A stretch of 64,000 nucleotides of DNA from Sulfurovaceae bacterium (GTDB lineage Bacteria > Campylobacterota > Campylobacteria > Campylobacterales > Sulfurovaceae), in the NCBI GenBank assembly GCA_028715055.1, contig JAQTLE010000002.1:310001-374000 (forward strand). Reading direction: 5' to 3'. Below the pieces are notes generated by a model that worked only from the letters and a program-made list of their open reading frames with translations, did no database searches and had not been told where the DNA came from. Positions 34,488-39,704 of the stretch are shown piece by piece (the first letter of the stretch is position 1; the number at the start of each line of letters is the position of its first letter). The translations under genes were made by a program, and so were the position numbers.

Positions 34488-35489
34488 ATGAAAAAAAACA
34501 AGAAAATCAAGCATAGCTCCAAAAAATACAAACCAAAAAAACACAAAAAATATATTAAAGGTCTGTATATTGCCATATCTATATTGCTTATTTTAGTTTT
34601 AGCATTTTTATATTATATATATACTCCTATCGAAACACACAAAAAAACAAGGATTCCGGCAGGCAGCATATCACATACGATATCAGAATTAAACAAGCAA
34701 GGATATAATGTCGGCTTTTTGGATCGATATATACTTTATTTTATGGGCGAACCAAAAGCCGGAATTATTGATTTTGGAAACATAAAAAGTATAAGCAGAA
34801 TAGAATTCCTTCGTCAAATCATAAATTTATCACCATCACATACTCCAAGCCAGTTAACTCTTATTCCAGGAGAAACACTAGAGATATTTTTTGAAGAAAC
34901 TGCAGCACAAACCGGATTGGACAAAAATATTCTTTTAGAAGAATATAAAAAACAATCTTCTTATCCTGAAGCTGGAATATCTGCTGATACATATTTTATA
35001 TCAGATGATATGAATGAAAAACAGCTTATAGAATTTCTTATCAAAGAATCAGAAGCAAAATATACAAAACTTGCTATTAAATACAAAGGTTCATATAACA
35101 AAAAAGAATGGCAACGCATACTCACCATTGCTTCTATAATACAAAAAGAAGCAGCCAATACAAAAGAAATGCCTCTGGTTTCTTCTGTGATTTACAACAG
35201 ACTTGCAAAAAATATGAAATTACAAATGGATGGTACATTAAATTATGGAAAATACTCACATATAAAAGTAACGTCCGAGAGAATTAAAAACGATTCTAGC
35301 AACTTCAATACATACAAAAATTATGGCTTACCGGGTTCACCTATCGGGTCTGTATCTTTAGAAGCAATAAATGCTGCTATCAACCCTGCCAAAACGGATT
35401 ACTTATATTTTGTAAAAAACTCCAGCGGAACTCATACTTTTAGCAGTGATTTTGAAGAACATAGAAAAGCTATAGAATCAGGCAACTAA
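34488..35489 (+). CDS. mltG: Endolytic murein transglycosylase MltG
   Basis: A 333-residue protein. A very basic N-terminus is followed by one membrane helix (LYIAISILLILVLAFLYYIY), then the YceG domain with the catalytic Glu221 in SIIQKEAAN and the blocks LVSSVIYNRL, MQMDGTLNYG-like LQMDGTLNYGKY and YGLPGSPIG. It cuts nascent glycan strands and sets their length. It follows the Lol permease after 6 bases. Confidence 0.95.
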   Translation: MKKNKKIKHSSKKYKPKKHKKYIKGLYIAISILLILVLAFLYYIYTPIETHKKTRIPAGSISHTISELNKQGYNVGFLDRYILYFMGEPKAGIIDFGNIKSISRIEFLRQIINLSPSHTPSQLTLIPGETLEIFFEETAAQTGLDKNILLEEYKKQSSYPEAGISADTYFISDDMNEKQLIEFLIKESEAKYTKLAIKYKGSYNKKEWQRILTIASIIQKEAANTKEMPLVSSVIYNRLAKNMKLQMDGTLNYGKYSHIKVTSERIKNDSSNFNTYKNYGLPGSPIGSVSLEAINAAINPAKTDYLYFVKNSSGTHTFSSDFEEHRKAIESGN

Positions 35490-36319
35490 ACATGCATTAT
35501 CCATTTTTGAAAATCTTGTAGATCAAAAAGTAAAAGATTTTTATCTTTTGCTCCTAATAATTCCCCAGAAAATCCTTGTTTGGAAAAAAGCACATAGTAT
35601 GCCGCAGGAAATCCTAACTGTAAAGCTTTTGATTTTAGTTTTGTAAGTTCATTTTTACATACTTTTCTATCTTTATATTTACATTCAGCAATAATCATCT
35701 CTTTTTTATCGGTGACTGCGACTATGTCAAATTCATTATCTCTATCCCAATAACTTCCGGAAAAAACAATATTTATTTTAAGGGATTCGAAATATTCGCA
35801 CAAAAGTTCATTTGAGAGCTGTTCAAATATCAAGCTTCTCAATCGTTCGTAATGCGCCTTAAAGTATTCTACAAATCTTGTAATGTCACCTTTGATAATA
35901 GAATTTCTGAACGGCTCAACAAAACCAAACCAAAATCTATAATAAGGCATATTAAATCTCAATTTATCTTGTATACGATATTTTTTGGACGCACTAAATA
36001 CTAATTCACTAGAAGTTTCAAGACGTATCACGCCTAAATCGGTTAAATCTTTTACTATATGCTCTCCTAGTGTTTCGCTCAGATTTGCTTTTCTTAATAC
36101 ACTGTATATTTTGCCGTCACCTCTGGCAATAGCCATTAATACTTCACGATAAGGACTTTCCAAAAGATAAGACGGAGTTATTAATGATTGAAAAAAGGCA
36201 AAATCGGATATAAATTTTGTCTCTATTAATTCAAATAGTATATCGAAATAATCAAACTCTATTGTTTGCCCTGTTCCGCCAAAAATAGCGAAATAATCAA
36301 TTAATTGTTCGAAATTCAA
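35486..36319 (-). CDS. DUF234-domain nuclease-like protein
   Basis: A 277-residue protein: a winged-helix region (YREVLMAIARGDGKIYSVLR), the DUF234 block (YRIQDKLRFNMPYYRFWFGFVEP) and a C-terminal restriction-like nuclease fold (EFDIVAVTDKKEMIIAECKYK, where Asp and the E-x-K are the expected metal-site residues). It resembles the C-terminal part of archaeal-type DUF234 ATPases without the ATPase. The TTG at 36319 is the only canonical start, but the frame stays open upstream and reads KVLFQSFCDNYAHLNFEQL; an ATA at 36361-36359 with AAGG 8 bases ahead may be the real or a mutated start. It ends overlapping the mltG stop. Confidence 0.75.
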   Translation of the reverse strand: MNFEQLIDYFAIFGGTGQTIEFDYFDILFELIETKFISDFAFFQSLITPSYLLESPYREVLMAIARGDGKIYSVLRKANLSETLGEHIVKDLTDLGVIRLETSSELVFSASKKYRIQDKLRFNMPYYRFWFGFVEPFRNSIIKGDITRFVEYFKAHYERLRSLIFEQLSNELLCEYFESLKINIVFSGSYWDRDNEFDIVAVTDKKEMIIAECKYKDRKVCKNELTKLKSKALQLGFPAAYYVLFSKQGFSGELLGAKDKNLLLFDLQDFQKWIMHV

Positions 36320-36430
36320 ATGAGCATAATTATCACAAAATGATTGAAATAGTACTTTTATGTCTCTAGCCTTAATATCAAATATTGAATATTATTTTAA
36401 CATAATTTTGCTACAATAGCTTTAGATTAT

Positions 36431-36455
36431 ATTGATGATTTTTTCATCAATTTTT
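36431..36455 (+). promoter_or_regulatory. Hairpin with T tail in the leader of the NtrC-like gene
   Basis: ATTGATGA, five T, TCATCAAT, then TTTT. It lies 16 bases ahead of the ATG at 36472 and downstream of a TGCTACAAT -10-like box at about 36409-36417, so it would form in the transcript leader. It looks like an intrinsic terminator or attenuator, though the stem is weak (A/T rich). Confidence 0.4.
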
Positions 36456-36471: not shown

Positions 36472-37212
36472 ATGGAGAATAAAAGATTGTTTAATAGTAC
36501 ATCAACAAAAATCCAATACATTACGAAAGGTTTGGAACTCAGCAAATCTCTTTTTGTATCATCTTTAATAATTGGAGAAGCAAATATAGGCAAAAAATCT
36601 CTTGTCAAATCTATATTTCCAGATGCAAAATGGGTTGATGGCCATAATAAGACAAAACTAAAACAAGCTCTTAGTGAACATGATGAACTTATAATTAACA
36701 ATTTTGAAATGTATGGAGATTACAATATAAATGATTTTAATGGCAAAAGAATAATTGCCATAAGCAATGCTTCTTCCTTCCCTTCCCAAGTTGATTCACT
36801 TTTTGCATTTATTTATACTATGCCATCATTAAAAGAACGGCTAGAAGACGTAAAATACCTTGGTGATATTTTTGCCAAAGAAGTCAAATCGATCTTTAAC
36901 ACAAAAGAGATATCGATGTTGAATTTAGCAGATATTGATCTTATTGATAATACAAAATCACTTAAAAAAGCTATTTTTGAACACTATATATATAATACCA
37001 TTACACCCGAGCAGATAGAACAAATGTTATACAATTATTTCAAAAAAGAACTTGGTGGAAATAATGACTATGCAAAATATCTAACAATTTTTGAAAATCC
37101 TCTCATTAAAGCCGGATTGGCTAAATTTGGATCACAACTAAAGCTCTCAAGCGTACTTGGTATCAATAGAAATACACTGAGAAAAAAGGTATATGAACTT
37201 GGAATCAATTGA
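36472..37212 (+). CDS. Reduced NtrC-like regulator with Fis-type HTH
   Basis: A 246-residue protein with a degenerate AAA+ core: GEANIGKKSLVKSI at 35-48 matches the Walker A of sigma-54 activators, and DELIINNFEM resembles Walker B. No GAFTGA loop, sensor II region or receiver domain is visible. The last 25 residues (SSVLGINRNTLRKKVYELG) form a clear Fis-type DNA-binding helix-turn-helix. It probably binds DNA without activating sigma-54 in the usual way. The next gene (PAS) overlaps it by 20 bases and amtB-glnK follow, so nitrogen control is the likely setting. Confidence 0.65.
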   Translation: MENKRLFNSTSTKIQYITKGLELSKSLFVSSLIIGEANIGKKSLVKSIFPDAKWVDGHNKTKLKQALSEHDELIINNFEMYGDYNINDFNGKRIIAISNASSFPSQVDSLFAFIYTMPSLKERLEDVKYLGDIFAKEVKSIFNTKEISMLNLADIDLIDNTKSLKKAIFEHYIYNTITPEQIEQMLYNYFKKELGGNNDYAKYLTIFENPLIKAGLAKFGSQLKLSSVLGINRNTLRKKVYELGIN

Positions 37213-37894
37213 TTTTAAACTTTTTGTAGAAGTAGACAACAACCCATTTATATTGTTTGATTCATCCGGACATATATTATATCTAAACAACTCTGCTGAG
37301 ATGTTATTATGTTATGTTGGCACTAAAGAACTCTATGATCTAGCGCTCACTTATGCACCAAAAACCTTCGGGCACAAAAATACCATACATTCTTTGGAAT
37401 ATGAAGCATTTTCATTTTATTCGCTTATGGTTGGATATGAAACAGATGAACAGATATACCTAAGATTATACAACAAACCACTAGTACAAACAAAAATGTC
37501 TATTTGCAATGAATCTCTAATCTCTACAGATATAAATACTTTGCTCGAGGCAAATATAACGCTATTTCAACTAGAAAGCAGTGCTGCTATATCTTTATTT
37601 GTAGATCAGGAACTTCCGACATTTAAACTTGATCAAAATCATTTTTCAAAAATGCTGCGAAAAGCATTGAGCACATTTATAGATTCTCCATCTCTTAATA
37701 TCATATTAAAACTCATAGTTGGAGAGTACATATTGATCAATGATAAAAAACATCAAATCATTGAACTTATCCTAAAAGCACCAAAACGCAAAATTGATTT
37801 TGATGATGAAATAAACCAATTAGCAAATCAAACGCATATTACAGCTTCTTTAAAACCAGAAACTATTAAATTTCAAATTCCGCTTATTGTATAA
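37193..37894 (+). CDS. PAS protein with decayed histidine-kinase end (NtrB-like)
   Basis: A 233-residue protein. The N-terminal 70 residues look like a PAS sensor (FVEVDNNPFILFDSSGHILYLNNSAEMLL). The C-terminus (TASLKPETIKFQIPLIV) resembles the end of a HATPase domain, but no phospho-accepting His box and no N, G1 or G2 ATP boxes are seen, so kinase activity is unlikely. It overlaps the NtrC-like gene and lies 87 bases upstream of amtB. It probably acts as a sensor partner of that protein by contact; this is inference. Confidence 0.6.
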   Translation: MNLESIDFKLFVEVDNNPFILFDSSGHILYLNNSAEMLLCYVGTKELYDLALTYAPKTFGHKNTIHSLEYEAFSFYSLMVGYETDEQIYLRLYNKPLVQTKMSICNESLISTDINTLLEANITLFQLESSAAISLFVDQELPTFKLDQNHFSKMLRKALSTFIDSPSLNIILKLIVGEYILINDKKHQIIELILKAPKRKIDFDDEINQLANQTHITASLKPETIKFQIPLIV

Positions 37895-37981
37895 TTGCCT
37901 ATTTTTTAATCAAAACATCGCATTATAACTATGCAAATTATTGTTATTATTCATTTGTAAATAAATTACAAAGGATATAAG

Positions 37982-39704
<1,723 letters not shown>

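Follow-up and report, generated by a model that had tools for sequence, protein, structure and literature searches.

The DNA analysed here, hereafter the window, is a stretch of 64,000 nucleotides from a Sulfurovaceae bacterium, in which two small genes precede amtB and glnK. The first encodes a reduced NtrC-type protein, A (36472-37212, + strand, 246 aa, intact frame), and the second a protein predicted to combine a PAS domain with a histidine-kinase CA fold, B (37193-37894, + strand, 233 aa), the two frames overlapping by 20 bases. Then come amtB (37982-39316, + strand), a predicted target, and the P-II gene glnK (39363-39704, + strand), a predicted target too and the likely signal donor to B. 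Coordinates, overlap and gene order are those given by the first-pass annotation, which had been made from the sequence alone. The folds, the loss of catalytic motifs, the co-occurrence of A and B, a palindrome with its geometry and the neighbouring genes were all computed. Divergent from A lies a DUF234 gene (35486-36319, - strand, 277 aa), for which we make no claim of membership in the system; a DUF234 cluster stands beside A in 8 of 20 loci of the window's family, with weak hints of Mrr/Card1 nucleases below cut-off.

Folds and motifs of the two proteins

A retains a P-loop (GEANIGKK), a sensor I (RIIAISN), the segment SLKERLED and a Fis-type HTH with NRNTLRKK, the latter domain above the Pfam cut-off (HTH_8/Fis, 8.4e-5). 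No receiver (REC) match was found by Pfam, and the predicted model begins within the AAA+ domain. GAFT, the signature of the GAFTGA loop, occurs in none of 60 aligned A proteins, and the arginine-finger segment (FREDLFHRL in NtrC) is a gap in all 60 in one MAFFT alignment; the placement of Walker B by MAFFT was unreliable and was left out of the analysis. The Fis-type HTH and the lack of GAFTGA loop and receiver are thus as first described, while the “worn Walker A” of the first-pass annotation proves too strong an expression: the second glycine of the P-loop is kept in 60/60 and the lysine in 57/60 (R in 3), the window's A included.

Against the curated NtrC model the window's A scores 26.1 bits, below the cut-off of 558.6. 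The NtrC model matches 36 of 36 A members and the FlgR model 1 of 36, so that a descent of A/B from the flagellar FlgR/FlgS pair is not favoured. The best single-protein model match of A is Fis (1.7e-8), and the matches to the Fis and NtrC sequence models fall mainly on the HTH. A profile of 36 A relatives compared with the PDB gives colinear matches to FleQ (positions 4-50), NtrC1 (84-172) and Fis (171-243, 1.9e-9). By hhalign, A aligns with E. coli NtrC from sensor I to the HTH (E 4.4e-9) and, from the P-loop onward, with the one strong bEBP match of the window's genome (E 4.3e-8). Full-length matches of A within the window's family are 32-82% identical.

This strong bEBP (G000 contig 3, 361836-362336; L180:1243-2598) looks NifA-like. 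It has GAFTDA in place of GAFTGA, its frame ends without an evident Fis-type HTH, and rpoN lies about 8 kb off.

The AlphaFold model of A (mean pLDDT 90.7) resembles the sigma54 AAA+ domains of PspF, NtrC1 and NtrC4; these domains are about 240 residues long, and the alignments cover 171-175 of them at Z about 14.5. Named matches are PspF (2c96, Z 14.5 over 171 aa) and NtrX (5m7n, E 4.9e-7). The aligned length falls short of the full domain because a stretch is deleted in A. On this model, A consists of an NtrC-type AAA+ domain that lacks the sigma54 loop and the arginine-finger segment, followed by a Fis-type HTH.

B is nearly an orphan by sequence. A Pfam search with the window's B gave no match and NCBIfam a weak PAS match (0.12); Pfam finds PAS in 13 of 35 B relatives, the window's own B not being among them. 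The AlphaFold model (mean pLDDT 85.8) comprises a PAS and a CA-type domain, and no DHp helix pair was found in it. Among 51 B proteins, none has the H-box pattern, no column is at least half histidine, and neither DxGxG nor GLGL/GxGxG occurs; the same pattern scan finds H-box, DxGxG and GLGL/GxGxG in E. coli NtrB. For residues 109-233, the NtrB CA domain 1r62 comes first by Z (14.7; 121/136 residues; rmsd 2.6), with other kinase CA domains within 1 Z, and the Foldseek E ranks other kinases first and 1r62 eleventh; this match list concerns mostly the CA half. As the comparison of B with E. coli NtrB by sequence is weak (probability 1.9%, PAS part only), the link of B to CA domains rests on structure. 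The NifL-NifA complex 9qq6 turns up in the fold-match lists of both A and B. Identity of B within the window's family is about 34-88% (full-length matches). Conservation of this degree in A and B, both of which profiles recover throughout the class, is well above what chance would give.

The first-pass annotation had given B a PAS and a HATPase-like tail but no His box or ATP boxes, and had proposed structure prediction and a check of the missing motifs in relatives. Both analyses agree with it: the models match sigma54 AAA+ domains for A and the NtrB CA domain for B, which removes the concern that the folds might be unrelated to NtrB/NtrC, and since the catalytic motifs are absent across 60 A and 51 B proteins, their loss is common to the sampled families.

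Pairing and gene neighbourhood

In the window's family, A occurs in 137 and B in 135 of 150 genomes; 20 loci fetched with flanks all carry A, with B directly 3' of it in 19, and the last one runs off its contig. A profile search of the class found A in 132 and B in 131 of 347 genomes. Both sets amount to the same 131 genomes, the sole A-only genome (G330) being a weak match (1e-9) inside a 455-aa frame, and the co-occurrence holds also where the genes are unlinked. P-II is present in 131/131 of these AB+ genomes, and 41 genomes have P-II without AB. Of 45 AB+ genomes tested for RpoN, 12 do not have it (one-contig examples are G024, G205, G427 and G469). One f5 genome carries two B copies, one adjoining A and the other elsewhere (L116; G263:C91:6105-6770).

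At the class level, A adjoins B in 13 of 40 loci. Many of the non-adjoining A genes sit in an operon of the tol-pal/slyD-fabD type (Pfam: acyltransferase, FKBP, OmpA-type and others). B apart from A lies directly 3' of an rpoD-like gene in 17 of 20 loci (L159-L178), and in one more with a small frame between; the sigma-70 regions of this rpoD-like gene were confirmed in one locus. Genes for A adjoining amtB/glnK are found in families f1, f4, f6, f8, f9 and in one f7 genome, with differing gene orders, and in the f6 clade glnD comes after A in 5 of 7 loci, a sixth having glnD in two frames. Mapped onto a tree built from 59 A proteins, the amtB context requires 10 changes (at least 8 forced by the starred branches) and the fabD context 2, the neighbourhood labels depending on the genes within six ORFs—these being mechanical longest frames—and on contig ends. 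The presence of a mixed clade of f1, f6, f7, f8 and f9 members (support 100/99) points to transfer. The idea that A/B are tied to amtB by position only was rejected, since A and B lie elsewhere in many families.

A conserved protein of 276-289 aa (cluster c17) is encoded repeatedly in the vicinity of A (L137, L139, L140, L148, L149, L112, L114, L062 and L080), and in several of these loci its gene separates amtB from A; two members were searched and gave no Pfam family over cut-off. Outside Campylobacterota, a scan biased to the NRNTLRKK helix returned mainly alphaproteobacterial loci; six frames were checked, of which three exceed the NtrC cut-off, one is just short of it, and two without GAFTGA have no match at the 1e-120 threshold.

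Predicted operator, promoters and regulon

Family relatives have a 17-bp Fis-like palindrome, TGATTA-N5-TAATCA, upstream of amtB. We do not take it for an FNR-type site, in which the half-sites are closer together. The window contains a sole exact match to TGATKA-N5-TMATCA, the predicted A operator TGATGATTTTTTCATCA (36433-36449), a TGATGA variant placed 22 bp before the A start codon; one exact match in the window is only modestly unlikely (9/100 shuffles). A degenerate predicted operator with two mismatches, TGCCTATTTTTTAATCA (37896-37912), precedes amtB. The same pattern is exact in 19 of 60 A upstreams (40 within one mismatch), many of them family loci, and in 32 of 61 stretches 3' of B, both with a value of 0.000 in single-base shuffles.

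Where amtB/glnK lie apart from AB (33 loci fetched), the predicted operator is found within one mismatch in 17 loci (exact in 11), the best site per locus lying 36-115 bp ahead of amtB or glnK; the 16 others, which include the window-family genera g2, g8 and g10, have no site within one mismatch. Four AB- loci have no exact site, and one of them (L201) has a one-mismatch site 189 bp before amtB. An exact site lies within 200 bp of 20 of 73 lead amtB/glnK genes (29 within one mismatch) and of 13 of 771 other frames, some via a divergently shared site; once the frames near amtB/glnK/A are excluded, other genes have a strict TGATTA site ahead of them in 1/531 and 0/86. Class-wide, the strict form counts 210 sites in 131 AB+ genomes and 12 in 216 AB- genomes, and its reversed-pattern control 6 and 4, respectively; the Fisher tests on these site counts, as those on co-occurrence, ignore phylogeny. 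Strict sites number 0-7 per genome, 87 of the 131 AB+ genomes having at least one and 44 none. In genus g3, G055, which has P-II and is devoid of AB, has no strict site, and the six other sampled members have 2-5.

The distance from site to promoter was measured in the 48 distinct amtB/glnK upstreams that contain an exact site. In 29 of them an extended -10 (TGnTAnnAT) follows the site within 10-60 bp, the shuffled frequency of any such box being 0.026 (single-base shuffles), and only two spacings occur, 28 bp (17 upstreams) and 29 bp (12 upstreams). This gap places the predicted site at about -60 to -44, from where A would activate transcription by sigma70 RNA polymerase. Scanning for a site together with a -10 (gap 27-30) gave 25 cases in 19 of 45 AB+ genomes, chosen mostly from strict-site holders (gap 27 once, 28 in 13, 29 in 11), none in 35 AB- genomes and none for the reversed pattern. 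Upstream of A, the extended -10 was found in 12/19, in 8 of which the site lies 15-17 bp farther down, while in the other 4 the two overlap; a site on or just below its -10 suggests that A would repress itself. The window obeys both spacings. The predicted operator before A starts 15 bp downstream of the extended -10 TGCTACAAT (36409-36417, + strand), which, judged from the sequence, is a repressor position, and the extended -10 TGTTATTAT of amtB (37942-37950, + strand) comes 29 bp after the half-degenerate operator, as in relatives, and 31 bp before the amtB ATG. At one locus (L263, G287:C1:815703) a predicted operator and -10 have no frame of 90 codons starting within 250 bp, which may point to a small RNA or a short gene.

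A sigma54-like promoter was matched once among 193 amtB/glnK upstreams. This count, together with the 12 of 45 AB+ genomes devoid of rpoN, indirectly leads us to reject A as a sigma54-dependent regulator.

A second operator type, TGTATA-N5-TATACA, appears in f6 and at mixed-family A loci, a set picked after the tree and the sites were known: it is exact in 9 of 39 amtB/glnK/A upstreams and within one mismatch in 14, and none of the 39 has a TGATTA site within one mismatch. The other AB+ loci (143 upstreams) have TGATTA exact in 25 and within one mismatch in 37, TGTATA exact in 0 and within one in 2. Strict TGATTA is rare in f6 (6/22 AB+ genomes, one site each). The switch of type is found also in G007 (family f1), whose A clusters with other families. 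A class could be assigned to 31 of 60 A rows. Among these, 17 of the 19 genomes with TGATTA carry N at the recognition-helix position that follows NR, and 11 of the 12 with TGTATA carry I, V, T or A there (Fisher p 1e-5, without regard to phylogeny). In f4, G152 and G176 are exceptions with V and TGATTA, and G289 breaks the rule in the opposite direction; G188 (f4), scored TGTATA, counts for the rule and carries, close to its other P-II gene, a strict TGATTA site as well. G384 belongs to the mixed clade by tree, yet its helix has N and its genome contains two strict TGATTA sites, in agreement with the residue rather than with the clade. That the operator type tracks both the A clade and the helix residue is the best evidence that A, and no other protein, reads the site.

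It could still be argued that the palindrome belongs to another regulator lost in the same lineages, A and B doing something else. Co-occurrence is indeed confounded with lineage and life style, and the loci of tol-pal/fabD type have no site within one mismatch before A, except L132 (one mismatch, 213 bp). Such a regulator would have to account for a site that lies before A in many family loci (the 19 exact and 40 near matches given above) and that changes type with the A clade and the helix residue, G007 included. Besides, predicted sites such as GATTAAAAATTAATC and GTATAAAAATTATAC would agree with the Fis operator rule, outlined in an excerpt of PMC4784862 as a 15-bp core bounded by G and C, with an A/T centre and a frequent Y-R step, and the recognition helix of A carries the NR.TLRKK of Fis. 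We consider this first alternative unlikely.

Beyond amtB/glnK, predicted sites precede NarK-family transporters (TIGR00886) and ferredoxin-nitrite-reductase-like proteins, both below cut-off, a molybdopterin oxidoreductase, a DmsB-like ferredoxin frame followed by another, an SsuA-like protein (below cut-off), a urea ABC binding protein (TIGR03427, over cut-off), TorF (over cut-off), other porins and chemoreceptors. In the window's genome a predicted site stands between a UvrD-like helicase and a LysR regulator, and three inspected sites fall within genes. The predicted regulon resembles the NtrC regulon of alpha- and betaproteobacteria, for which a portion of PMC5343134 names nas, nirA, narK, nrt and amtB. 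One chemoreceptor gene (L254:2865-4554) has a predicted operator 44 bp upstream, a placement hinting at a possible nitrogen-controlled taxis.

A might also be mainly a Fis-like architectural or global protein, with nitrogen genes as a part of its reach and B tuning sigma70. The rank of Fis as best single-protein match of A would fit with this, as would the place of B directly after the rpoD-like gene in 17 of 20 loci away from A. On the other hand strict sites are few (0-7 per genome, as counted above) with many of the annotated ones before nitrogen genes, and A has, by its model, an AAA+ fold besides the Fis domain; we find a global role quite improbable. That A/B could be a decaying pseudo-pair on its way out, as the catalytic motifs missing in both proteins would allow, is hardly credible and was rejected on conservation: frames are intact, identities are 32-88% across the family, the 131-genome sets are identical and the HTH residues invariant.

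Proposed nitrogen control and known systems

We hold with good confidence that A and B are a nitrogen-control pair without phosphotransfer, in which A is predicted to act on the palindrome at sigma70 promoters, B to exert control by contact, and P-II to provide the input. A is most likely a nitrogen regulator of the sigma70 type under B, probably via P-II, and the pair looks like a switch for ammonium, nitrate and urea uptake in many Campylobacter relatives. Both proteins would derive from an NtrC/NtrB-like ancestor, phosphotransfer having been lost on both sides. A, as a Fis-like dimer, would bind the 17-bp palindrome (TGATTA-N5-TAATCA, or TGTATA-N5-TATACA in one clade), activate transcription by sigma70 RNA polymerase from the promoters of amtB/glnK and of other genes for nitrogen scavenging, and repress its own promoter. 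B, a putative PAS-CA pseudokinase, may control A through direct contact, with P-II (GlnK) supplying the signal, in a manner resembling the control of NifA by NifL. We lean slightly towards a broader proposal: a two-component system shed its phosphorelay on both sides and yet remained an obligate pair for as long as an order has existed. The outcome would be a relay of P-II, pseudokinase and pseudo-AAA+ protein in charge of a sigma70 nitrogen regulon throughout Campylobacterota, its operator code being largely readable from one recognition-helix residue. The position of B behind an rpoD-like gene in many families is left unexplained by the nitrogen-control pair.

The first-pass annotation is confirmed in its observation and supported in its interpretation, largely borne out and widened. 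It had suggested a non-phosphorylation pair for ammonium uptake: fold, joint loss of catalysis, obligate pairing and the ammonium link are supported by computation, but the predicted targets extend beyond ammonium uptake to a nitrate/nitrite transporter, nitrite reductase, the urea ABC binding protein and porins. It had also regarded the same proteins lying away from amtB as telling against it. In many other families they do lie elsewhere, A in the tol-pal/slyD-fabD operon and B behind the rpoD-like gene; yet this is not fatal to the reading, since 17 of the 33 separate loci nonetheless have the predicted operator ahead of amtB/glnK (11 exact).

In the open-licence literature we found no paper on nitrogen-assimilation control in Campylobacterota and nothing on the A/B pair. 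According to a portion of PMC5343134, its regulon survey omitted the epsilonproteobacteria as orthologues of the target factors, NtrC included, were missing; term counts in a review of respiratory regulation in Campylobacterota give no match to NtrC, RpoN or nitrogen assimilation. If the present reading is true, it provides a regulator, its operator, its regulon and its likely signal for nitrogen control in Campylobacterota, and a clean case of a two-component pair working without phosphate.

NtrB/NtrC of E. coli (GlnL/GlnG) share with A/B the two folds and the target class (amtB, glnK, nitrogen scavenging). They differ in that A/B have no REC, no DHp and no phosphotransfer motifs, use another operator and are often encoded by unlinked genes; as receiver, GAFTGA, His box and ATP boxes were looked for and found missing, A/B are not NtrB/NtrC members as these are defined. 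Fis shares with A the HTH and, judged from the predicted sites, possibly the binding-site rule, but has about 98 aa and neither AAA+ remnant nor partner, whereas A has 246 aa with an AAA+ remnant. VpsR, like A, is of bEBP type, acts at sigma70 promoters and is without GAFTGA, as described in a passage of PMC10274813. Unlike A, VpsR (PDB 7v2b) binds c-di-GMP. It also keeps a receiver-like domain, and we know of no pseudokinase partner for it.

Closer cases are the NtrC proteins of Rhodobacter capsulatus and Caulobacter. As a passage of PMC10274813 describes them, they have, like A, the sigma54 loop deleted, control nitrogen assimilation and act at sigma70 promoters; unlike A, they act via phosphorylation and keep the receiver with its aspartyl phosphorylation, Caulobacter NtrC needing in addition its Walker A and B residues. 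In A/B the receiver, the arginine-finger segment and the kinase motifs are gone. For B, the nearest counterpart would be NifL of Azotobacter and Klebsiella, which, in the extracts of PMC9866876, has PAS and GHKL domains, hydrolyses no ATP and controls NifA by protein contact, GlnK probably acting via the GHKL domain; the C-terminus of Klebsiella NifL has no ATP/ADP-binding features and still holds NifA. In the same extracts NifL keeps its H domain and NifA is a working sigma54 ATPase (PMC9866876), whereas in A/B the activator looks sigma54-free and the partner is smaller. The architecture of A/B would agree with a non-phosphorylating GHKL partner of the NifL-NifA kind. By analogy, the pair might join a relic of NtrC of the sigma70 type with a NifL-like relic of NtrB, and could work in a similar way.
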